The notes under the pieces: generated by a model | What the model was told of the DNA's origin: nothing | The model's database searches: none | What the model saw: the letters and a program-made list of their open reading frames with translations, nothing else | In this document: positions 7,497 to 25,377 of the stretch, in pieces | Numbering within the stretch: the first letter of the stretch is position 1 | Layout: the number at the start of each line of letters is the position of its first letter | Assembly: GCA_028279405.1 (NCBI GenBank) | Contig: JANQNU010000088.1 | Coordinates: 1-64,000 of the forward strand | Length of the DNA stretch: 64,000 nucleotides | Source: Phycisphaerae bacterium | GTDB lineage: Bacteria > Planctomycetota > Phycisphaerae > UBA1845 > Fen-1342 | Direction of reading: 5' to 3' | Translations under genes and position numbers: made by a program

Positions 7497-9254
7497 ATGG
7501 CCCTGATGGCCGGTTTCCGATCCGACAAGTCCGGTATTTGGGCGGTCTGCGTCGTTACCCTGCTCCTTGCGTGCACCGTGCTGCGGTCGGAGGCGCGGGA
7601 CTATTACGTCGCTCCGACCGGCCGTGACCTGGGCAACAATGGTAGCCTCGTCGAGCCGTTCGCGACCATCCGTCATGCGCTCAGCCGCGCCACCAGCCCC
7701 GGCGACACCGTGATGCTGCGTGAAGGTGTGTACACGCCGACCGACTCCCTTTGGATGGGCCACGCCGGCAACCGCGACGCCCCCATCACCCTCGCAGCCT
7801 TTCCCGGAGAACGTCCGGTAATCGACGGCCTGGCGCTTCCCCCGGACAAATCCCTGCTCGTCGTCGGCCGCAGCCACATCGTGGTCGCGGGCCTCGAGCT
7901 ACGGAACGCCACGCGTATCGGCGTGAGCATCTGGGGGCCCGGCAGTCTCATTCACGATGTCGTCGTACGCCGCTGCGTGATCCACGGCTGTCAACGAAGC
8001 GCCGTGTTCGTCGGCTACAACCAACGCACCGATCCGGTCCGCGACGTGCTCGTCGAAAGTAACGTTTTTTACGACAACGCGCGCGTCAACGCCTCGTTAC
8101 CGCGTACGGCGTGGCCGATCGCCTGTGGTGCGTCTTTTGCCAGTCGAGTTATGTATCGCGACAATCGCGTCTTCGAGAACTTCGGCGAGGGGATCGGCTT
8201 CTACCTTTCCGATCACTGTGTCGCGACCGGCAACGTCGTGTTCGACAACTTCAGCGTCAACATCTACCTCGACAACGCCACCGACTGCCTCGTCGAAGGC
8301 AACCGGATTCACGCAACCGCCAATCAGGCGTTCTTCCGATTCGGTCAGCCCGCGACCGGCGTCCAAATCGCGAACGAAGATTATGGCACCGCTGCCAATC
8401 CGGCAGCGGGCAACACGATCGTCAATAACGTCATCTCCGGGGTCCGCAACGCGCTCTACTACGGAAACTACCAGCGCGGCGGTGGACTGCATAACACCGC
8501 CTTTGTCCACAACACCGTCTTCGGCACAACGCAGACAATGCTCCTGATCGACAGCGACCGTCATTCGAGCACGACGCTAACGGGCAACATCTTTTGCCAA
8601 CTGCCGGGCGCCACATTGACCGCGATCACCGGCGATCCGACCGGATTGAGCTTCCACCACAATCTGTGGCACGGCGGCCACCCGCAAGCGATCGCTACCG
8701 GCCGAGGTGACATATTGGCCAATCCACAGTTCGCCGACCCGCTGGGTGCGGATGGTATCGGCGGCACCGCTGACGACGACCTGCGACTGACCGCGCGTTC
8801 GCCGGCCATCGACGCCGGGGACAACGCCGCGGTTCCACCCGATATCGATGATGCCGATCGCGACGGCGATCGTTCGGAACGACTGCCGCACGATCACGCC
8901 CGTTCGGTGCGATTCGTCGACGATGCGCTCGCAAAGAACGTGGGACTCGCGCTGCCTCCGACCTACCCTGCCATCGTTGATCTCGGCGCCTATGAGTTCG
9001 TCCGCCACGCCGACTTCGAGCCCGACGGCGATGTCGATGCGGCCGATCTCGCTGCGCTCGCGCGGTGCATCGGTGGCGTGGGCATGCCGGCACCGGCAAG
9101 TTGCGTGGCTGGAGTCGACGCGGACCTGGACAATGATGGCGACGTGGATCTTGCGGACGTCGCGGCACTTGCGCGCGGCTTCACCGGCCCGCACTCGTGT
9201 GCCGGCGGGGCCCCGCGTACACGCGTGACGCGGCAGCCCCAACCACACGAATAG
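7497..9254 (+). CDS. Secreted right-handed beta-helix protein with dockerin-like C-terminus
   Basis: 585 residues from the ATG at 7497 (another ATG at 7506). N-terminal signal peptide with hydrophobic core WAVCVVTLLLACTVL. The body opens with YYVAPTGRDLGNNGSLVEPFATI, the DUF1565-type entry to pectate-lyase-like parallel beta-helices. Repeated short turns follow (VSIWGPGSLIHDVVVRRC, NVVFDNFSVNIYLDNA and others). The C-terminus has two calcium-loop repeats, DFEPDGDVDAADLAALARC and DLDNDGDVDLADVAALARG, as in type I dockerins. Likely exported and acting on or binding a polysaccharide; no catalytic residues were identified. Divergent from rplU with about 150 bases between. Confidence 0.82.
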   Translation: MALMAGFRSDKSGIWAVCVVTLLLACTVLRSEARDYYVAPTGRDLGNNGSLVEPFATIRHALSRATSPGDTVMLREGVYTPTDSLWMGHAGNRDAPITLAAFPGERPVIDGLALPPDKSLLVVGRSHIVVAGLELRNATRIGVSIWGPGSLIHDVVVRRCVIHGCQRSAVFVGYNQRTDPVRDVLVESNVFYDNARVNASLPRTAWPIACGASFASRVMYRDNRVFENFGEGIGFYLSDHCVATGNVVFDNFSVNIYLDNATDCLVEGNRIHATANQAFFRFGQPATGVQIANEDYGTAANPAAGNTIVNNVISGVRNALYYGNYQRGGGLHNTAFVHNTVFGTTQTMLLIDSDRHSSTTLTGNIFCQLPGATLTAITGDPTGLSFHHNLWHGGHPQAIATGRGDILANPQFADPLGADGIGGTADDDLRLTARSPAIDAGDNAAVPPDIDDADRDGDRSERLPHDHARSVRFVDDALAKNVGLALPPTYPAIVDLGAYEFVRHADFEPDGDVDAADLAALARCIGGVGMPAPASCVAGVDADLDNDGDVDLADVAALARGFTGPHSCAGGAPRTRVTRQPQPHE

Positions 9255-9256
9255 CG

Positions 9257-11506
9257 CTATCGCGCCGGCGAGAACTCCTCGAAAACGGTCAGCGTGTCAT
9301 TCGCGTCCACGACGACGATCCGCAACCGATAGTCGACCGTGATCAGCTGCTGGACGCATGCGCCCTCGCTGTTGGTGAGCGGGAAGTCCCATTCCCAGAC
9401 GTTCGCGGTATCTGCAACGGGCTGCATCTCGGCACCGCCGTTGCGGATTCGGTCGGAGAAGAACGGATTCTCGGGTCCCGGAACGGCCTGGGTCGGATTG
9501 ACGCCGTCGAAGTACGGATAGATGCGCACCTCGCGGACTCCCCGGGCCGATGACGCCCGCACGCGCACCGTCAGCCGACAGTCGTCCTCGTACCGGTACG
9601 AGATCCCGTCGATCCGCGGAAAGCCGCTACGGATCGAGTTGCCGTCGTGCAGCACGTACAGCCCACCGTTGGACCCGCCTGCTGCACAGTGGGTGACCAG
9701 CGTGCGCCCGACGTCGTCGATCTGCACGTGTCGCGACCAGTTCGGAGCGAAGATCGGCGTTCCCGCCGCCACGCGATTCTCGGTCCCCACGTCCTGCAAG
9801 ATCGGCGTCTTGCCCTCGCAACAGCGGTCGGTCGTGTAAAAGACGCGCGCCCCATTGTCAGACATCTTGAAGTTGCCCGGTTGCGTGCGACCGTCGCCCA
9901 CTTGTGTCACTTCTCCGTCAACCGTTTCGACGAAGCACGGCACAATCGGGTTGATGCCGGTATTGCCATCGACATTGCGGCAGTAGGCGAACGTCTGGCC
10001 GTCGTCGGAGATGTTCAGGTCGAAGACGGACTGGTCCGGTCGCGACTCGTTCAGCACGCGCGTTTCCTCGAAGATCGTGTCGACTTGTCTCGTGACGAGC
10101 CCGCTGCCGAAGTAGAAGATGTCACGAAGTCGCTCGGTCGGCGTTGCAGAGACATCGTAGTTCGGCTCGAAGAGGTAGGCCGGAAAGTCGCCGGCGGCGT
10201 CGAACTCGGCGCCGAAGTTTCGCGGGTTTACGGCTATCACGGGAATATCGGCGGCGACGACCAGCGCGCTCGGATTGAAAGGAATCGTCGTCAGGTCGAC
10301 GGTATACACGCCGCGATGGCTCGATCTCGAGTCGACCACATAGAAGCGATCGCCGGGGTCGTTGACCTTGAACAAACTGCGGAAGTCGAAGTTCCCGGTG
10401 TACGAGAACAGCGTCTCCAGCGGTTCTCCCGGCGAAGCGCGATAAAAGCTGCCACCGAAATTGAAGACGGCCACGGCGCCATCCACATTGGTCTCGACGT
10501 GCAATCCGAAGGTGGTGCGCCGGTCGGCCGGAACAATCGAGCGCAGGCCGCCGGTGCCGTCCGTATTGATGCACCAGATCTGCGTACGATCCTGACCATC
10601 GACCGCGAACGGGGCGAGCAAACGGAACCAGACGTACGTACCGTTACCGTTGAGCGCGTAGGAGCGGTTGAACGTGTCGAAGACCTGTGGCCCCACTGTG
10701 AAGTCGTCGCGGGTAACCAGCCCGAATTGCTCATCGATCTCCGCTCCCGCGAGAATCTGTTCACTACCGCGGTGCTCGATCAGCGCGGGGATGAACCCTC
10801 CGTCGCCGCCGTTGTCGTTGCCGTTGCCGCTTCCGTTCTGATTGCCGTTGTCCGCACCATTGCCGTTAGCGTTGTCCGTAGGACTGCCATTGTCGTTCGT
10901 GTTGGTTTCATCCACGAGGTCCGGAGACGATGGCGCCGTTGACTCGACCGATCCGAAGTCGCACGTCATTTCGTCGATGGTAATCTTCACGTCGATCGTG
11001 GCTGTCACTTCGAAACAAATCGTGAACGTCCCGCTACGAACGAAGGGTAGCGCTGCCGCCGGCACACGTAGGCCCCCATTGACGAGTCGGACGCTTCCGT
11101 CGGTGATGACGACGTCAAAGGAGCCGACAAGGACGCCGTCCGCACACGGGTCCGTCGCGTCGGCGGCAGCGCAGCGGACCACGATCGTCGCTTTTCCGTT
11201 TAGTGATTGCGCCGCCGGCTTCGACGTGTCTTCCAATGGCAGCGCGCGAACCGTGCCGACCCGTAGCGTCGCGCTCCCCGGCTGATCAGTCGGCGGAGCA
11301 TCGAACGGCAGGCTGACCACCCCGGCCTTGCGCGCCGGGTTCGCGGCGTTGGCCAGGACGTCGATCACACCAGTCTCCTGAAGTGCAAACACGAACGCCT
11401 GCGACGCAATCGTGAAGCCTACAAGACCCACTGGCGGACACCCGACGATCGGGATGAGCATACCCGCAGCCACGCTCAGACCGACCAGTCTCCGATTTGC
11501 TTCCAT
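9257..11506 (-). CDS. Large predicted lipoprotein, unknown function
   Basis: 749 residues from the second ATG (MEANRRLVG), chosen because TGAGGA lies six bases ahead of it; the ATG two codons upstream would have no spacing. A signal peptide ends in a lipobox, PIVGC, near residue 23. After about 190 residues comes a linker of roughly 45 residues made almost only of Asn, Asp and Gly. The larger C-terminal part has repeated short beta-like units (VWFRLLAPF, IWCINTDG, FYVVDSRSSHRGVYTVDL), suggesting a propeller of the kind found in TolB/PD40 proteins. I do not recognise a specific family. It is tail-to-tail with the beta-helix gene and diverges from the ECF sigma gene. Confidence 0.7.
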   Translation of the reverse strand: MEANRRLVGLSVAAGMLIPIVGCPPVGLVGFTIASQAFVFALQETGVIDVLANAANPARKAGVVSLPFDAPPTDQPGSATLRVGTVRALPLEDTSKPAAQSLNGKATIVVRCAAADATDPCADGVLVGSFDVVITDGSVRLVNGGLRVPAAALPFVRSGTFTICFEVTATIDVKITIDEMTCDFGSVESTAPSSPDLVDETNTNDNGSPTDNANGNGADNGNQNGSGNGNDNGGDGGFIPALIEHRGSEQILAGAEIDEQFGLVTRDDFTVGPQVFDTFNRSYALNGNGTYVWFRLLAPFAVDGQDRTQIWCINTDGTGGLRSIVPADRRTTFGLHVETNVDGAVAVFNFGGSFYRASPGEPLETLFSYTGNFDFRSLFKVNDPGDRFYVVDSRSSHRGVYTVDLTTIPFNPSALVVAADIPVIAVNPRNFGAEFDAAGDFPAYLFEPNYDVSATPTERLRDIFYFGSGLVTRQVDTIFEETRVLNESRPDQSVFDLNISDDGQTFAYCRNVDGNTGINPIVPCFVETVDGEVTQVGDGRTQPGNFKMSDNGARVFYTTDRCCEGKTPILQDVGTENRVAAGTPIFAPNWSRHVQIDDVGRTLVTHCAAGGSNGGLYVLHDGNSIRSGFPRIDGISYRYEDDCRLTVRVRASSARGVREVRIYPYFDGVNPTQAVPGPENPFFSDRIRNGGAEMQPVADTANVWEWDFPLTNSEGACVQQLITVDYRLRIVVVDANDTLTVFEEFSPAR

Positions 11507-11791
11507 CTTCATTCCTCACCCTCCAGTACACACCTTGGGGAGCCTCAACAGGTTCGGTCGGAGGCGTCACCCGATGTACACTGCCACCGAGGCGATCTCA
11601 CAGGAAAACGCGATTCGCCAGCACGAGCCGCGATCGGCCGGCGCGCCGACGCACCACGTTTTTTTGTTGTGAGATCGGTTGGGCTGGCGTGTACAACCGT
11701 CGACAGATGATCGACGGTGCGTATTGACGGGGTGGTTATCCGGTCCCGCGCTTCCGGCCCGAATGGGGTACACTGGGTCGGGAGGACGAGA

Positions 11792-12367
11792 TTGGATACC
11801 ACCCGGCCGAGCCTGTTGCTGCGCATCCGCGATCATGCCGACGCCGAGGCCTGGCAGACGTTCGATACGATCTATCGGCCGCTGATCTATCGCTATGCGC
11901 TGGCCCAGGGCCTGGCAGATCCGGACGCCGACGACGTGACGCAATACTGCCTGTCAGCGGTGGCGGAACGGATTGCGACGTTCGATTACGACCCGCGCAA
12001 GGGTAGTTTCAAGGGTTGGCTACGGACGATCGCCACGAACCGCGTCCGCAATCTGTGGCGCGATCGGCGCGACCGCCCGGCAGCCAGCGGCGAGCTGCAG
12101 CGACCGCAGGAACGTGAGCCGGAACCGGACGAGGTCTTCGAGAGAATTTGGCAGCAGGAACATCTGTGGCATTGCCTTCGCGAGGTCGAGCGCGACTCCG
12201 ACCAATCGACCTACCGGGCGTTTGTCGCTTACGTGCTCGAAAACGAAACGGTCGAGGCGGTGTGCGCGAAAACGGGATTGACGCGGAACAACGTCTACAC
12301 CATCAAATGGCGCCTGACGGAACGGATCGCGCAACGAATGAAAGAGCTGCTCGATGGGACGGAGTGA
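11792..12367 (+). CDS. ECF RNA polymerase sigma factor
   Basis: 191 residues starting at a TTG that has GGGAGG six bases ahead; the product then opens MDTTRPSLLLRIRDHAD, the usual N-terminus of planctomycete ECF factors. Region 2 is seen as FDTIYRPLIYRYALAQGL and DVTQYCLSAVAERIATFDYDPRKGSFKGWLRTIATNRVRNLWRDR. The region 4 helix-turn-helix is ETVEAVCAKTGLTRNNVYTIKWRLTERI. The last 14 bases overlap the start of the kinase gene, so the two are almost certainly co-translated. It probably directs transcription under control of that kinase. Confidence 0.88.
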   Translation: MDTTRPSLLLRIRDHADAEAWQTFDTIYRPLIYRYALAQGLADPDADDVTQYCLSAVAERIATFDYDPRKGSFKGWLRTIATNRVRNLWRDRRDRPAASGELQRPQEREPEPDEVFERIWQQEHLWHCLREVERDSDQSTYRAFVAYVLENETVEAVCAKTGLTRNNVYTIKWRLTERIAQRMKELLDGTE

Positions 12368-14921
12368 GACGGCGTCGGCCTGCGCCAGCGATGAGCAGCT
12401 GCGCCGCCTGCACGCAAAAGAACTCGCCGATGCGGACGCAACGCCGCTGACGCAGCATCTGGAACGATGCGCCGCGTGCCGTGATCGTTCGCAGCGGCTG
12501 CTTGCGGCCCACGAAACATGGATCGCCAGATTGCGCGCCGCGGGAGCCCCGCCGACAGCAGACAACGCCGCCCGTCACGGCGCTGCCCCGCTCGGCGACC
12601 GTGAGATCGCAGGCTACGAAATTCGGGAGGAGTTGCACCGCGGGGGACAGGGACTCGTCTATCGCGCGCTGCAACAATCGACGCGCCGCGAGGTCGCGAT
12701 CAAGGTCTTGCGCGAAGGACCCTACGCCTCCGAGCGCGCCCGACGCCGGTTCGAGCGCGAGGTGGAGCTGGTCGCGCAGCTCGACCATCCGGGAATCGTC
12801 AAGGTGTTCGACTCCGGGCAAACAGGTGCGGGCCGCCAGTTTCTGGTCATGGATCTGGTCCGGGGCGCGCGGCTCGACGAGCACCTGAAACGGAGGCAGC
12901 CGCCACTGACCGAGCGGCTTCGGCTTTTCGCGCTGATCTGCGATGCGGTCAACTACGCCCACCTCCACGGCGTCATTCACCGCGATCTCAAGCCGGCCAA
13001 CGTACTGGTCGACGAGCACGATCGACCGCGAGTACTCGACTTCGGCCTGGCGCGGGCGCTCAACGAGCAGGACGCCACGCGCGTGACGGCGGACGAGACG
13101 ATCACCGGTACATTGGCGTACATGGCACCCGAGCAGGCCCGCGGACTGGGCGACGCAATCGATGTGCGAACCGACGTCTACGCACTCGGCGTAATGCTCT
13201 ATGAGCTGTTGACCGGCGGATTCCCGTACCCGGTCGCGGGGGACGCGATTCGCGTGCTTCGTCACATCGCCGAGACCGAACCGGATGCGATGCGATCGAC
13301 CCAGCCGGGCCAGACGATCGCGGCGGATCTCGAGACGATCACGCGCAAGGCCCTGCGAAAAACCCCGGCCGATCGGTATCAAACGGCCAGCGAACTGGGT
13401 CGCGACGTCGAGCGCTTCCTCGTTGGCGAGCCGATCGCTGCGCGGCGCGACAACCAACTCTACCTGTTGCGCAAACGGCTTCAGCGCTCACGGGGCATCA
13501 TTGCCACCAGCGTGCTGATCGGGACAGTATTGACCGTGTCCGTCGCGCTGCTCGCGGTTTCGCTCCAACGACAGCACCGGCTGCGGGACGAGGCCGAACA
13601 AGCACGCAACCGCGCCGAGCACCGGCTCACGCAGGTTCGCGAGATCGCCAATGCATTCCTGATCGATATCGATCCGCTGATCCGCCAACTCCCCGGTGCC
13701 GCTCCGGCACGTGAGGCGATCGTGACCAAAGGCCTGGGCTACCTGGATGCACTAACTGAGGAAGCCCAGGACTCCGACGACCTGCGTCTCGACCTGGCGC
13801 GCGGCTACCTGATCATCGGCGACGTGCAGGGTGACCTGAACAGCTCCACCCTCGCAACCCCCGAAGCCGCACTGACGAGCTACGGGCGCGCCGAAACGCT
13901 CCTGCGTCCGTTGGCCGCCCGGTCGTCGGCGGCGCTCGATGTGACGCGCGACTTGGCGTTATGCTTGCAAAAACAAGCCCTGGCGCTCAATACGCTCGGG
14001 CGAACCGCCGAACGTGACACGGCGCAACACGAAGCGCTGGAACTGCTGACGGCCCTGGTGGCCGCGCACCCGGAAAATCGCCGCCTCCTGCGCGACTTGT
14101 CCGTGCTCTACGAACGCCTCGGCAATCAAACCGGCAACCTCGACCAAAAACTCGAGCACTACGACCGCGCTATGGCGCTTGCGGAGCGAATCGTCGACGC
14201 ATCCAGCGACGACCTGTGGTCTCTCCGCGATCTGTTTGTCGGCTATACCAAGCAAGCCAACGTCCATATGGGCCGGGGTGAGCTGGACCAGGCGCTCGAG
14301 AACTGGCGGAAGTTCCGTTCGTTCGCCGAGCGATTGAGCGCCGCTTACCCGGACAACCTCGTCGCTCGCAGAGATCTGAGTACCGCCTATCAATGGCTCG
14401 GGATCATTCAAAGCGCCAAGGGCGCCACAGACAGCGCCGTCGGGCATTTTCGCGACGCGATCGCAATCAACCAGGCGGTCTTGCGACAAGAGCCCAACAG
14501 TGCACGGGCGTTGAACGACCAGACGACGGTCTACGTAAAGCTCGTCGAGGCGCTATTGGCCGCCGAGCGTGTCGACGAAGCCGCGGACGCGATCGATGCC
14601 TGTATCGGCGCCGCCGAACGGCTCGTGGCGGCTCACGAAACGATCCCGTCATACCAACGCGTACTCGCGGTGGCATACTACAAGCGTGCAGAATGGAATC
14701 GGGCTCGCGGCCAGGACGAGGAGCTGTCTGCATCGCAGCGCACGAACCACTGGCGCGAAGTACGAATCGCGCTCGATCGGGCGCGAGGACGTTTCGAGCA
14801 GATGCTGGCGGGCGGGACGCTGGCGGAATCGGACGGCGCCGTCATCGACGAACTGACGGCGGAGATCGAGGCCTGCGATGACGCGATCGCCGCGCTCGAG
14901 CCGGACACGCCTTCCCAATAG
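12354..14921 (+). CDS. Transmembrane Ser/Thr protein kinase with N-terminal zinc anti-sigma-like motif and TPR-type tail
   Basis: 855 residues. Order of parts: residues 1-50 hold a His35-x3-Cys39-x2-Cys42 motif like the zinc-binding anti-sigma (ZAS) motif; a Hanks-type kinase domain runs about 88-350, with Lys117 (VAIKVL), HRDLKPAN at 209-216, DFG at 229-231 and YMAPEQ; one membrane helix near 383-403 (IIATSVLIGTVLTVSVALLAV); then about 450 residues of helical repeats resembling tetratricopeptide repeats, predicted outside the membrane. The catalytic residues are intact. It overlaps the ECF sigma gene by 14 bases, so it is probably that factor's regulator. AAAGAG precedes the ATG. Confidence 0.9.
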   Translation: MGRSETASACASDEQLRRLHAKELADADATPLTQHLERCAACRDRSQRLLAAHETWIARLRAAGAPPTADNAARHGAAPLGDREIAGYEIREELHRGGQGLVYRALQQSTRREVAIKVLREGPYASERARRRFEREVELVAQLDHPGIVKVFDSGQTGAGRQFLVMDLVRGARLDEHLKRRQPPLTERLRLFALICDAVNYAHLHGVIHRDLKPANVLVDEHDRPRVLDFGLARALNEQDATRVTADETITGTLAYMAPEQARGLGDAIDVRTDVYALGVMLYELLTGGFPYPVAGDAIRVLRHIAETEPDAMRSTQPGQTIAADLETITRKALRKTPADRYQTASELGRDVERFLVGEPIAARRDNQLYLLRKRLQRSRGIIATSVLIGTVLTVSVALLAVSLQRQHRLRDEAEQARNRAEHRLTQVREIANAFLIDIDPLIRQLPGAAPAREAIVTKGLGYLDALTEEAQDSDDLRLDLARGYLIIGDVQGDLNSSTLATPEAALTSYGRAETLLRPLAARSSAALDVTRDLALCLQKQALALNTLGRTAERDTAQHEALELLTALVAAHPENRRLLRDLSVLYERLGNQTGNLDQKLEHYDRAMALAERIVDASSDDLWSLRDLFVGYTKQANVHMGRGELDQALENWRKFRSFAERLSAAYPDNLVARRDLSTAYQWLGIIQSAKGATDSAVGHFRDAIAINQAVLRQEPNSARALNDQTTVYVKLVEALLAAERVDEAADAIDACIGAAERLVAAHETIPSYQRVLAVAYYKRAEWNRARGQDEELSASQRTNHWREVRIALDRARGRFEQMLAGGTLAESDGAVIDELTAEIEACDDAIAALEPDTPSQ

Positions 14922-17124: not shown

Positions 17125-18414
17125 ATGATGTGGCACACGCTGCTGGCACTCGTGGCGCTCCCGCTGGGCGATTGGCGCGGTGCGAACCTTCTGGCAGACC
17201 TCCTTCAGCACCACTATCTCCTGGCGCCGTGGACCCTTGTGCCCGATCTCATCTTTGCGCTAGCGAACCTCGAACAACACGTTGATCCACTCAGGCAGGC
17301 CCGGCTTGGGACGATCGTGCTCGGCACCACATTCGCCTGCGCGCTGATCGTCTTCATCATCGGCTACCGCGGATTTCGGTTCGGTCTCTTCTTTCGCCTG
17401 CTCTGGCGCGCTCACGCGTCGGCCACGCTGATCACGATGATCCTGCTAATCGGCATCTTCGACACGCACGAGTGGGGATCGATCTTTCTGGTCATCACCC
17501 CCGCCGCGCTGGGGAGCGGATTCCTGGCATGCGAGGTGCGCCGACGAGAGCGCCTGTGCACTTGGCGTCCGACGTGCCCGGACTGCGGTTTCAGCATCCG
17601 GCGGGCCGGCGGAGCAAACTGCACCGAGTGCGGAGCGCCCCACGTCGGTGATGTGCGACGCACTCGTCGCTGGGCCGTGTCTCGGCTACCCTGGGAGCGC
17701 GGCGTTCGGCCGTTCCTCCCGTTCGCACTGGTGCAGACGCTATTCCTGGTCATCCTCTGCCCGTGCAGGGCTGGTTCCCGGATCGCAGTCCCCGACCGCT
17801 GGACCCGGGCGCTGTGTTGGGCCGGCGGTGCCCTGCTGATCACTGCCCTGGTGTGGACGGTCGGCATCGTGCTCATCGACGATGTGCTGGGCACGAGACC
17901 CACATTCCGCCAACGACCGCCAAGCGGTATCGAGTTGGTCCGATCGGACGGACTCGCGATCAGCTGGACCGTGTACGCCCGTTGGACGCTATACCGCATG
18001 TTCGCGTGGATCGGCGCCGCGGTGCTACTGCTGGGCCCAATTCTGGTGCTGCTTCCGTTCTTGCGCTGCGCACCCGCAGCGCGCTGGACGCTGCTGAAAT
18101 GGAGCTTCTATGCGCTACTGGCGTGCAATGTCGGCACACTCCTCGCCCTGCTCAGTCTGCTGGGAGGTGCAGGGTCGAACCGCGAACCGCTCCGCGAGGC
18201 GTTCGTGGCGCTCTACGACAACACCGACGCCTGGAATCTGCTCGGTAGCGTCACGACGTTCTCGATCTGGTGGTCCGCGGGCGCGGCGTTCAATCGCTAT
18301 TTGCCGCAGCGCGGCTGGGCCACGTTCGTACAATTGCTTGGCCGCTATTGGTTGCTCTTCGCACTCCTGTACTGGGTGCTCTTTCGACCGAGCGTGTTGA
18401 TCTGGAGCCTCTGA
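17125..18414 (+). CDS. Polytopic membrane protein with zinc ribbon (copy A1 of duplicated cassette)
   Basis: 429 residues from the ATG at 17125. A GTG at 17068 with GGAAAGGA ahead, overlapping the nitroreductase stop, is the alternative. About ten hydrophobic segments. Between the fifth and sixth lies a cytoplasmic-type zinc ribbon with Cys151, Cys154, Cys166 and Cys169 (CPDCGFSIRR, then CTECG), followed by a conserved block RRWAVSRLPWERG and ILCPCRAGSRIAVPDRW. The same blocks recur in the gene at 19256. I do not recognise a named family; similar zinc-ribbon membrane proteins are common in planctomycetes. The downstream gene starts two bases after the stop. Confidence 0.75.
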   Translation: MMWHTLLALVALPLGDWRGANLLADLLQHHYLLAPWTLVPDLIFALANLEQHVDPLRQARLGTIVLGTTFACALIVFIIGYRGFRFGLFFRLLWRAHASATLITMILLIGIFDTHEWGSIFLVITPAALGSGFLACEVRRRERLCTWRPTCPDCGFSIRRAGGANCTECGAPHVGDVRRTRRWAVSRLPWERGVRPFLPFALVQTLFLVILCPCRAGSRIAVPDRWTRALCWAGGALLITALVWTVGIVLIDDVLGTRPTFRQRPPSGIELVRSDGLAISWTVYARWTLYRMFAWIGAAVLLLGPILVLLPFLRCAPAARWTLLKWSFYALLACNVGTLLALLSLLGGAGSNREPLREAFVALYDNTDAWNLLGSVTTFSIWWSAGAAFNRYLPQRGWATFVQLLGRYWLLFALLYWVLFRPSVLIWSL

Positions 18415-18415
18415 C

Positions 18416-19240
18416 GTGCATATAGCGCTCTCTCAACGACCGGTCCGTCGAACGGCGCTACGGACCCGCGTCATCACAGTGGCGTTCGTGCTCACGCTTA
18501 GCGGGTCCTATTGCGTGGTCTTCCCGCGGATCGTCCGCCTGCAGGCGCAGCTCGGCTTCGGCCTGGACGACAGCCGACCGATGCTGGCGCGGGGGTACGC
18601 CGCTGGATCGAGCATGGACGACTGGTCCGGCGTCATGAATTTCGGCCACCCACAAACACCGTTCGTGTTCCTTGGTACGTGGTTGCGACCAATCATCGTC
18701 TTCGACCGTCACCTGCACCGGGTGAGCCAGATCAGCACGTTCCTCAGGTCCATCGGCCCGCTGATCGATCATGACCACGACGGCACCGCCGAGTGGGCGT
18801 TCGTCGAAACGCGCCAAACGACCAGCATCCCGCCGGACACCGGCGCTGCATCACAGTTTCGGCATGAGCGCTTCGTCTGGTTCATACGCGTCGGGCCCGG
18901 GCGACTCGAGTACTGCGGCGGAGTGCGAGTCGGTCTACAGCAGACGGGGTCATTGTTTCGGTACCGGCAATCCGGAGACGAGCTGATCCTGATCCACCAG
19001 TCCTTCTCGGGCAGCGGGCGTGTTTCCACCGACCTCATCCGCTGGACACCGACGACCGTCGAACCAATGTGGGACGCCGCACAATCACTGCGCGCCAACG
19101 ACATCCGCATTGAATACTTCCCACCGCCAAACGGCACGCCGCTACCATTGGACCCGGACATTGTGCTCGAAGACCAGGTTCTCTTCCCGACCGTTAGGGC
19201 TCCGAACGCGCCGACGCCGGAAGCAGCGGCCAATCCGTAA
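18416..19240 (+). CDS. Single-anchor exported protein (copy B1 of duplicated cassette)
   Basis: 274 residues from a GTG with GGAG nine bases ahead. One N-terminal hydrophobic helix (VITVAFVLTLSGSYCVVF) and the rest hydrophilic and probably outside the membrane. Recognisable only by its paralogue at 20680: both share the C-terminal block RW...PMWD/PLWD, then a tyrosine-rich YFPPPNGTP/YYPPPNGVP turn and an acidic end. An acidic DHDHDGTAEWAFVET stretch could bind calcium. No known domain. Two bases separate it from copy A1, so the pair should be made together and may form a complex. Confidence 0.7.
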   Translation: MHIALSQRPVRRTALRTRVITVAFVLTLSGSYCVVFPRIVRLQAQLGFGLDDSRPMLARGYAAGSSMDDWSGVMNFGHPQTPFVFLGTWLRPIIVFDRHLHRVSQISTFLRSIGPLIDHDHDGTAEWAFVETRQTTSIPPDTGAASQFRHERFVWFIRVGPGRLEYCGGVRVGLQQTGSLFRYRQSGDELILIHQSFSGSGRVSTDLIRWTPTTVEPMWDAAQSLRANDIRIEYFPPPNGTPLPLDPDIVLEDQVLFPTVRAPNAPTPEAAANP

Positions 19241-19255
19241 CGGGGGCGTTTCTCC

Positions 19256-20683
19256 ATGACCGAGTCTGCTCCCAGCTCGCCCGCACCGCGCGATGTCGCG
19301 CCGCGCCGCGCCCGACCGCTCTTTACCGCGTCGCGCGACCTGCTGGTAATCGTCGTGTGGTTCGCGGCGTTGGTGGCTGTCTCAATGCCGCTGGCATCCT
19401 ACGTAAGGATGCGAGCCGATCTGCTGGCTCCGCGCCCGCAGGTCCAAACTCCGGAAGTAACGCGGCCGGCGAACCCTGTGACCATCTTCCGCAAGTATGA
19501 ATGGCGCGACGTTCTTTTTTTCGTCAGTTTCTTGTTAGTACCCCCGCTTGTTCCGGCAGCCGGCGCCTATGTCACGTATGGCCTGATCCGCGCGCGCGAA
19601 CTCACACTGATCACCCTCGTTCGTCACCAACGCACAAACTGCTTGTGGGCTACACCGACCATGCTGGCGGCGATCGCGGTCGATGCGGTGTGGTGTAGCC
19701 GGGGAGAGTGGTCTGGAAGCATCATTTGGTGCACCTGGGGACTGGTTCTCGTCATCGGCCCGATTCTGTTGGCCCGCGAAGAGCGGCGGCGCCGTCTGGG
19801 TCGCCGCGCGCGATGGCGGCCGGTCTGCCCGGAGTGCGACTACAGTATCCGCAAGACGGTCGGGGCCACGTGTCCGGAGTGTGGCGAACAGGCGCTCGGC
19901 GATCCGCGCCGAAAGCACGACTGGGCGGTGCGCCGGCTCGAATGGGAGCGTCGACGGGAGCGCCAGAGCCTGCCGTTCGCGTACATCCGAACCCTGCTGT
20001 TCGTGCTCGTGTGCCCGTGTCGGGCCGGCGCGCGCGTCGTCCATCCCGACCGCTGGGGACGACTCCTGATCTGGCTGCTGGTCCCGCTCGTCGGAGCAGT
20101 CGCACTGTGGAGCGCCGGCAACTACTTGGGGTTTCAGTTGGCGACGCGCTATTGGGCGATCGTCGCACCCGGGAGCGGCTCAGCCGCGGCGCAAGCGCCC
20201 GAGGTAGGCCCGGCGTGGACATCAATCGCGATCTGGGGTCTGCAGAAGGTGGTGGCCTACGGGTTCCTGCTGGGGTCCCTTCCGTTGACAGCGTGGTTAC
20301 TCCTGTGGCTGCTACCGATCGCCTCAAATGCACGGCGTGCGCTGACCAAGTGGACGGCGTATGCGTTGGGTGTGCTCGGCCCCATCGCGATGCTGGGATT
20401 TCTCTTTGGCGTTGTAGAGCGAATTCGCATGACTTCCGCGTTTAGAGCGGGCGGACGCGGGACGCCGTGGCTACTTGATTGGCTTGGGTGGAATACGGAT
20501 ACACTGATTGGAGCGACCCTGGTCATCTTTGCAGTCTGGTGGGCACGGGGCGCTTCCGCAAACCCGCTGGTGCCGGTTCGCGGATGGCGCACGTTATTGG
20601 GATTGGTCGGCGGCTATGTGCTGCTATGGCTGACAATCTGGCTGGTCCTGTTCAACCCCGGCATCCTCTACACACTGCTATGA
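19256..20683 (+). CDS. Polytopic membrane protein with zinc ribbon (copy A2 of duplicated cassette)
   Basis: 475 residues. Paralogue of the gene at 17125: zinc ribbon with Cys191, Cys194, Cys206 and Cys209 (CPECDYSIRK, then CPECG), the same DWAVRRLEWERR block, VLVCPCRAGARVVHPDRW, and a shared ending (RGWRTLLGLVGGYVLLWLTIWLVLFNPG). About eight hydrophobic segments. It has a longer N-terminus than A1, with a proline-rich loop around residues 57-75. The stop overlaps the start of copy B2 as ATGA. Function unknown. The conserved ribbon between membrane segments suggests a cytoplasmic binding surface, but that is inference. Confidence 0.75.
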   Translation: MTESAPSSPAPRDVAPRRARPLFTASRDLLVIVVWFAALVAVSMPLASYVRMRADLLAPRPQVQTPEVTRPANPVTIFRKYEWRDVLFFVSFLLVPPLVPAAGAYVTYGLIRARELTLITLVRHQRTNCLWATPTMLAAIAVDAVWCSRGEWSGSIIWCTWGLVLVIGPILLAREERRRRLGRRARWRPVCPECDYSIRKTVGATCPECGEQALGDPRRKHDWAVRRLEWERRRERQSLPFAYIRTLLFVLVCPCRAGARVVHPDRWGRLLIWLLVPLVGAVALWSAGNYLGFQLATRYWAIVAPGSGSAAAQAPEVGPAWTSIAIWGLQKVVAYGFLLGSLPLTAWLLLWLLPIASNARRALTKWTAYALGVLGPIAMLGFLFGVVERIRMTSAFRAGGRGTPWLLDWLGWNTDTLIGATLVIFAVWWARGASANPLVPVRGWRTLLGLVGGYVLLWLTIWLVLFNPGILYTLL

Positions 20684-21483
20684 AGACGAGAACCCCCCAG
20701 GCAAACAGGATCACCTCGCGCTGGACGGCGCGCGTCACGCTGACAGTCGCGGCGCTGCTCGGCCTATCGCTCATCTACGGTGGCACCTACCAACACTTGT
20801 TGCACTGGATCGCCCGCGATTCACTCGGAAACCACTGGCGATCCGCGATCATTGAAGAAGCTGTTCGCAATGCCAACCCCCAGCTCGACTGGGGAAACCG
20901 GCGCTACTGGTTCCGGTACACGAAGCCTGCATTCCACCGTTTCTCTACGATATTCCCTGGCCAATCACCCAATGAGCCCACCCGCATCCGGCTGTTCGAC
21001 GAACAGCTCATTTGCTGCGGGACGGTGACCTCATCCTATGGCTGGCTCGCCGACTTTGCCGAGTTCGATGGCGATTGCGCTCTTTTGCTAAGGGGATACT
21101 CGCGGTTTACTTCATCTGTCGTGAAAGTGGTGTCGACCTGCCGCGTAGTCCGCGTTCGCGACGGTGCCGGCGTGTATTGCGGCGGCTACGAGACAATCAG
21201 CGGCACCCCTCTCCAGCTCTCCACACGGTGGCGCATGGCGACGGGCAGCAACGAGCTTCAGGTAATGGTCTATCGAAAAGGGAAAAAACGCCCTGAGCCC
21301 TTCACGTTGTCCCGCTGGAAGAACGGCATGGTCGTGCCGCTTTGGGACAACTCGGGAGATCTCAAGCATCCAGATCACGATCTGACCATCCGCTACTACC
21401 CGCCGCCGAACGGTGTACCGCAGCCGATCGATCCGACCGTTCCCCTCGAGGAGCAGTTCCCGATCCCCGATCCAGAGGACTAA
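20680..21483 (+). CDS. Single-anchor exported protein (copy B2 of duplicated cassette)
   Basis: 267 residues. The start was set at the ATG overlapping the stop of A2 (ATGA). One N-terminal hydrophobic helix (VTLTVAALLGLSLIYGG), then a hydrophilic region. Shares with B1 the order: aromatic-rich middle, RWKNGMVVPLWD, then LTIRYYPPPNGVPQPIDPTVPLEEQFP at the end. Overall similarity is low outside these blocks, so the duplication is old or the copies evolve fast. No known domain. Confidence 0.7.
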   Translation: MKTRTPQANRITSRWTARVTLTVAALLGLSLIYGGTYQHLLHWIARDSLGNHWRSAIIEEAVRNANPQLDWGNRRYWFRYTKPAFHRFSTIFPGQSPNEPTRIRLFDEQLICCGTVTSSYGWLADFAEFDGDCALLLRGYSRFTSSVVKVVSTCRVVRVRDGAGVYCGGYETISGTPLQLSTRWRMATGSNELQVMVYRKGKKRPEPFTLSRWKNGMVVPLWDNSGDLKHPDHDLTIRYYPPPNGVPQPIDPTVPLEEQFPIPDPED

Positions 21484-24693: not shown

Positions 24694-25377
24694 TTAGCGA
24701 CGACGCAGCGCGAGGCCGGCGAGACCGAGCAGCAGCAGGCTGGCGGGCTCAGGAACAACGGTCGCCTCAGGCGAGTTGTTGCTGTAGGCACCCGGGCCGG
24801 CGTTGCCGTCGACATCGTCGAGGCCGAGGAACGTGCTGTCATAGCTGTTCGGCGCGGCGATCGAGCCTTCGTTGAAGCGGATGTCGATGGCGCCGTTGGT
24901 GCCACTGACATCGACGTAGCCGATGACGGTCGAACCGGTGCCAGCGTCATGCTGGGTGTCGAAACCGGCGAACGGGCCGTTGGTGACGCCAGGCGTCGTG
25001 ACGGCGACGAAGACCAGGTTACCGGTGTCGTTGCCAGCGGCAGCCGACTCACCCGGGAAACCGCCGGCTTCCCAGCGATTCGCGACCTGAAGGCTGTGGT
25101 TCCAGAAGTTGTAACCGTCGATCTGGGCATCACCGCTCGCGATGATGTTGAAGTCCATACCATTGACGGTGGTGCCGGCGCCGATCGGGGTCGCCCAGAC
25201 CCAGAGGCGGCCGCTGCCGTCGACGGTCGGATCTTCAGCCTGCCCCGGCGAGCCAGCGGCGCCGCCGATGGTGCCGTCGTCCGTGCCGGTCTCCGACAGG
25301 TACAGACGGAGGCTCGACGCCTGGGCAGCGCTGACCATCAGGCCGAGCATTGCGATCATTGCAAAGAACTTCTTCAT
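24694..25377 (-). CDS. PEP-CTERM sorting-domain secreted protein
   Basis: 227 residues. A signal peptide (MKKFFAMIAMLGLMVSAAQA, cleavage after about residue 20) is followed by a Gly/Thr/Asp-rich exported body. It ends with the sorting tail VPEPASLLLLGLAGLALRRR: a VPEP motif, a short hydrophobic helix and an Arg cluster. Such tails are recognised by an exosortase and removed as the protein reaches the outer envelope or extracellular matrix. The ATG follows GGGAG at nine bases. The gene has its own promoter, a structured leader and its own terminator, so it is a single-gene unit. No exosortase is encoded in the window. The body is of unknown function. Confidence 0.92.
   Translation of the reverse strand: MKKFFAMIAMLGLMVSAAQASSLRLYLSETGTDDGTIGGAAGSPGQAEDPTVDGSGRLWVWATPIGAGTTVNGMDFNIIASGDAQIDGYNFWNHSLQVANRWEAGGFPGESAAAGNDTGNLVFVAVTTPGVTNGPFAGFDTQHDAGTGSTVIGYVDVSGTNGAIDIRFNEGSIAAPNSYDSTFLGLDDVDGNAGPGAYSNNSPEATVVPEPASLLLLGLAGLALRRR

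Follow-up and report, generated by a model that had tools for sequence, protein, structure and literature searches.

A duplicated two-gene membrane unit whose members occur together in Phycisphaerae genomes

Introduction

The window (the whole stretch of DNA analysed here, 64,000 nucleotides) carries at positions 17125-21483 two unlike membrane protein genes, A and B, each present twice in alternation, which raises the question of whether their products work as a pair. A sequence-only reading had proposed that they do, with two specificities, and that both members were duplicated together. This proposal was followed up by searches in the own genome and in related genomes, phylogeny, profile comparisons and structure prediction.

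Gene organization of the locus

Four genes are encoded head to tail on the forward strand. A1 (17125..18414) codes for a polytopic membrane protein of 429 aa with 9 hydrophobic segments, and its C4 zinc ribbon (C151-C170) is located in an Arg-rich loop between hydrophobic segments 4 and 5; the assignment of its start to ATG 17125 is uncertain, since in its relatives the first membrane helix begins just upstream. B1 (18416..19240), which starts with GTG 1 base past the A1 stop, codes for a 274 aa protein with a predicted single N-terminal transmembrane anchor and an exported domain containing a Ca-type loop (DHDHDGTAEW). A2 (19256..20683) codes for a polytopic protein of 475 aa with a C4 ribbon (C191-C209) and about 10 hydrophobic segments. 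B2 (20680..21483) codes for a 267 aa protein, also predicted to be exported and single-anchored, whose Ca-type loop is degenerate (EFDGDCALL); its start codon overlaps the A2 stop in an ATGA at 20680..20683 on the forward strand. The order A1-B1-A2-B2 and the spacings of 15 and -4 bases are as previously read, but the first gap is 1 base according to the ORF coordinates, not 2.

The features earlier ascribed to both A proteins are indeed common to them, namely the ribbon C-x2-C-x11-C-x2-C, the block RRWAVSRLPWER / HDWAVRRLEWER, LCPCRAG / VCPCRAG, PDRW and the ending, and the two proteins share 38% identity over 294 aa (BLASTP, E 4e-37). B1 and B2 share 33% identity over 107 C-terminal residues, PPPNG included (E 7e-14), and have in common the C-terminal block FPPPNGxPxPxDPxxxLE[DE]Q. 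The PPPNG turn is thus found in both, whereas the acidic C-terminus attributed to both is present in B2 (..PDPED) but not in B1 (..EAAANP). Judged by these alignments, the similarities are far beyond chance and both pairs are genuine paralogues.

Elsewhere in the window, ORF translations at 11717-14921 indicate a Ser/Thr protein kinase whose C-terminal part is rich in repeats, preceded by an ECF-type sigma factor, and a PEP-CTERM-type exported protein ending VPEPASLLLLGLAGLALRRR is encoded on the minus strand (24694-25377).

A third cassette and duplication of the unit

Searches with A2 and B1 revealed a third pair on contig 28 of the own genome (L021), composed of A3 (8380-10038, minus strand) and B3 (7580-8383, minus strand, from the ATG at 8383), with a 4-base overlap. 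Other weak A matches in this genome (C7, C65, C36, C81, C42 and others) were rejected, as they reflect the ribbon alone in unrelated proteins. Phylogenetic trees of 17 pairs place the three A paralogues of this genome in a single clade (support 91/90) and likewise its three B paralogues (99/99). The two genes were therefore copied as one unit; together with the third cassette, this bears out the proposal of joint duplication. Concerning the order of duplication, the A tree joins copies 1 and 2 and the B tree copies 1 and 3, both weakly. Between copies 1 and 2, identity is 41% for A and 24% for B, B being the less conserved member.

Independent partial repeats were observed in other genomes: an A-B-B' arrangement at a contig end in G367 (L151, 1-1598), and an A-B pair followed by a fragment of the A N-terminal half in G263 (L148, 1-1897). 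Another tandemly amplified ribbon-anchored family is encoded on contig 7 of the own genome (L022, 5917-10063), where three tandem paralogues of 434-445 aa each carry the ribbon CPxCEYNLAxIxxDRCPECG at the N-terminus, together with one or two membrane helices and, C-terminally, a large domain.

Co-occurrence of A and B in related genomes

A plain sequence search detected A in 10 of 41 genomes, counting the own genome, and B in the own genome only, because B diverges too fast. The B genes of relatives were therefore recognised by reading the DNA downstream of each A, where in every case the next ORF on the same strand is a strongly diverged one of 268-447 aa with a single hydrophobic helix at the N-terminus, and profiles were built from the sequences thus collected. 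The A profile detected the A gene proper in 17 of 397 Phycisphaerae genomes, and the B profile detected B in the identical 17. The hypergeometric probability of this coincidence, 3e-30, holds for independent genomes, and these are related; moreover, 'A proper' was chosen after the matches were known and the B profile was seeded from the neighbours of A. Several pairs outside this seed were matched as well (e.g. in G012, G002, G162, G251, G263 and G367). In a phylum-wide sample of 392 genomes, the B profile matched the own genome only. The named relatives with the pair are Phycisphaerae/Phycisphaerales MAGs and uncultured planctomycetes. A MAG labelled Alphaproteobacteria also carries the pair (L057, JANQQE010000014.1); its contig corresponds to that of G031, which belongs to the order of the window, and the label is probably wrong.

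B lies directly downstream of A in every pair, so that an A-type gene followed by a B-type gene is the rule in these genomes and not a rarity. A 4-base stop/start overlap is present in 16 of the 19 distinct A-B pairs, the exceptions being -1, +1 (A1-B1) and +5, and this conserved ATGA overlap suggests translational coupling. The distances among A proteins correlate with those among B proteins (r 0.85, 0 of 5000 permutations), in part through plain shared descent. A recurring third gene beside A-B was found in relatives only at three closely related syntenic loci.

Ribbon and Yip1-like membrane proteins lacking the other features of A are encoded in 20 of 150 other genomes of the class. Neither a B-profile match nor a closely spaced single-anchor ORF follows any of 19 such control genes (0/19 for each), which indicates that the B partner is specific to A. 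A gene consisting of the N-terminal half plus ribbon, without B, is present in three further genomes (G180, G331 and G385). On a separate contig of G385, the gene directly after a divergent short A-like gene matches B marginally (E 3e-4; L143, 85-1904, minus strand), and this arrangement possibly represents a step from the ribbon/Yip1-like family towards the A-B pair.

It could be argued that A and B are merely transcribed together, for instance for matched expression, and that their products act separately, as compact operons often have overlapping genes. We regard this as improbable: neither gene proper occurs alone among the 397 class genomes at the thresholds used, the two have been duplicated repeatedly as a pair, and the 19 related membrane genes have no B beside them. 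A conflict or defence pair, such as an immunity-type membrane protein with its effector, would fit the patchy distribution (17/397) and the fast evolution of B, but it is hardly credible, since there is no PADLOC match (none at E<=0.1 for eight proteins), no toxin-like domain and no recurring mobile or defence neighbour. The consistency with which related bacteria keep A and B adjacent indicates that their products very probably act together, and the idea of a working pair is strongly supported by the third cassette, the identical genome sets, the conserved overlap, the paralogue clades and the partnerless controls.

Features of protein A

Most A proteins are composed of an N-terminal half with about four hydrophobic segments, the Arg-rich ribbon loop and a C-terminal half of five helices. 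Short A proteins of 282-288 aa (L048, L058, L074 and L075) consist of the ribbon and the C-terminal half only and still have a B, whereas the genes made of the N-terminal half plus ribbon (L144, 3628-4359; L145, 3818-4495; L146, 2703-5042) have none; the partner thus goes with the C-terminal half. Since the N-terminal half plus ribbon exists as a separate gene, long A proteins look like fusions of two ribbon-membrane modules. In some A proteins, a second, degenerate ribbon is found just before the main one (L045, 5474-6976, e.g. CASCGFRFDRCGSRNCTSC; L077, 1480-2206).

The ribbon cysteines, arranged in two CxxC knuckles, are invariant in all A members, and Pfam DZR matches were obtained for 10 of 12 A proteins (best E 4e-4, below cut-off where scores are listed). 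The motif is that of a C4 zinc ribbon, and zinc binding is predicted. The ribbon loop is positively charged (14-20 K+R), as is the N-terminus of B; from this charge distribution, the ribbon loop of A and the N-terminus of B should be cytoplasmic and the B domain should lie outside.

The predicted structure of A2 is of moderate quality (pLDDT 71), confident mainly for the C-terminal half, and contains five long helices in residues 267-465. No solved structure matched it: Foldseek and VIA-align searches of the PDB gave nothing usable for A, the best Z of 7.7 being within helical noise. This bears on whether the unit could be a transporter, with A as permease or channel and B as a tethered receptor or gate on the outer face. 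A polytopic protein with one exported, fast-diverging partner is a common anatomy of transporter/binding-subunit pairs, and A has 9-10 hydrophobic segments. We nevertheless consider a transporter unlikely, because no known transporter family or fold was matched by A, relatives have neither an ATPase nor a metabolic gene recurring beside the unit, and the short A proteins of several genomes (282-289 aa) are small for a permease.

Features of protein B

Despite its fast evolution, B remains recognisable by its transmembrane anchor, a DxDxDG Ca-type loop and the C-terminal block. The loop is present in 15 of 17 B proteins (shuffled sequences: mean 0.2, maximum 3), twice in four of them; B1 and B3 keep one, and it is absent from B2 and from one other B (UBA1845). 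In G007, B is extended at its C-terminus by about 150 residues (447 aa; L046, 4052-5395).

A central member of the family (L053, 314 aa) was modelled with pLDDT 80.7 and pTM 0.76. The model comprises the anchor helix, a second helix and 12 strands, read as three four-stranded meanders. Structural searches with it gave weak matches (Foldseek E 0.03 at best; top Z 6.0, with 134 residues aligned at rmsd 4.9), nearly all of them to beta-propellers (WD40-type, DDB1, integrin alpha, PL11 lyases and levansucrase). The modelled B looks like a partial FG-GAP-type propeller with three blades, an unusual, open form, and alignment to this relative points to a propeller-like fold in B1 and B2 as well.

Proposed function of the A-B unit

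The reading we favour, with some reserve, is that A and B form a single complex in the inner membrane, as subunits encoded by a translationally coupled gene pair, B sensing outward and A relaying inward. In such a complex, A would be the polytopic subunit, with its Arg-rich ribbon loop in the cytoplasm and a Yip1-like C-terminal five-helix domain, and B, anchored by its single N-terminal helix, would expose a small partial beta-propeller, three-bladed and Ca-binding, on the outward face of the membrane, where it could dock on A or pair with another B. Outward recognition of a ligand, an envelope component or a partner protein would fall to the fast-evolving B, and A would pass this recognition inward, the ribbon being the cytoplasmic contact. 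The results indicate no ligand, signal or downstream gene for A-B. The three diverged cassettes would represent three versions of the complex in one genome, possibly with differing specificities. In a much more speculative and rather doubtful extension, two three-bladed B proteins, of the same or of different cassettes, would close a six-bladed ring atop the A subunits; if so, the three cassettes would provide combinatorial outward-facing receptors with cytoplasmic zinc-ribbon outputs.

A-B is a conserved, so far unnamed membrane unit of two genetically inseparable proteins in the Phycisphaerae, a class with a poorly understood cell envelope. Its paired subunit, Ca-type loop and ribbon provide an entry point to at least one branch of the planctomycete ribbon-membrane proteins, a group devoid of functional assignments. 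Because a single genome has three diverged copies, specificity and cross-pairing are directly testable.

Comparison with known families

Searches of Pfam, NCBIfam, PADLOC and PDB sequences returned no family for A or B, and no description of the pair was found in the literature, subscription papers being mostly beyond the reach of the search. The earlier view that neither part belongs to a named family therefore holds for Pfam, NCBIfam and PADLOC, but both can be placed loosely, the C-terminal half and ribbon of A with ribbon/Yip1-like proteins and B with FG-GAP-type propellers.

The closest known counterparts of A are the planctomycete ribbon/Yip1-like proteins (e.g. L120-L142), a widespread family whose members, like A, have a C4 ribbon (CPxCGYxLRGxxxxxCPECG) followed by PWxxR...RAYxxT....P.R and a domain of several helices. 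A shares with them the ribbon, the linker (W-x-R, RAYxxT, P-x-R) and the first helix, and hhalign relates the two at 99.5% (E 2.5e-22), and still at 94.4% (E 9e-8) when the ribbon is taken out, a reversed control giving 0.2%. Unlike A, these proteins are mostly of 250-320 aa with an N-terminal ribbon, and lack the extra N-terminal half and, in all 19 cases, the B partner. One ribbon-family member, L119, matches Pfam Yip1 (PF04893) with 31.2 bits in one search and 28.4 bits, against a cut-off of 28.6, in another. Membership of A itself in PF04893 is not supported, as Yip1 is absent both among the 25 families listed for 12 A proteins (E<=10) and from the table for A2; likewise, hhalign of A to local Yip1 proteins gave 0.1-0.5%. 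A Yip1-type trafficking or envelope-assembly scaffold, in which A organises membrane domains under B as a structural, non-sensing cap, is suggested by the match of the ribbon, linker and first helix of A to the family in which L119 carries a Yip1 domain at cut-off. We judge it quite unlikely, as A itself has no Yip1 match and as this explanation accounts for little, the role of bacterial Yip1 proteins being itself obscure.

For B, the nearest known elements are the FG-GAP / integrin-alpha-type repeats (PF01839, PF13517), which share with B a DxDxDGxxE loop ahead of a beta meander, in these repeats the Ca site of the blade. Several B proteins have weak FG-GAP matches, though none reaches the gathering score of Pfam FG-GAP or FG-GAP_3 (top scores of 16.1 bits, where 22.1 is required, and 15.9, where 26.9 is required). 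B further differs in having an N-terminal anchor helix and only three meanders, where a closed ring has about seven blades, and in the loss of the loop from B2 and one other member. The PL11 rhamnogalacturonan lyases (YesW/YesX), which are propellers found among the structural matches of B at Z 4.9-5.5, bind calcium in such loops, but they are much larger enzymes, and the three meanders of B bear no sign of an active site. The A-B pair, previously unnamed and outside the curated families, is in this respect built from blocks of recognisable kinds.
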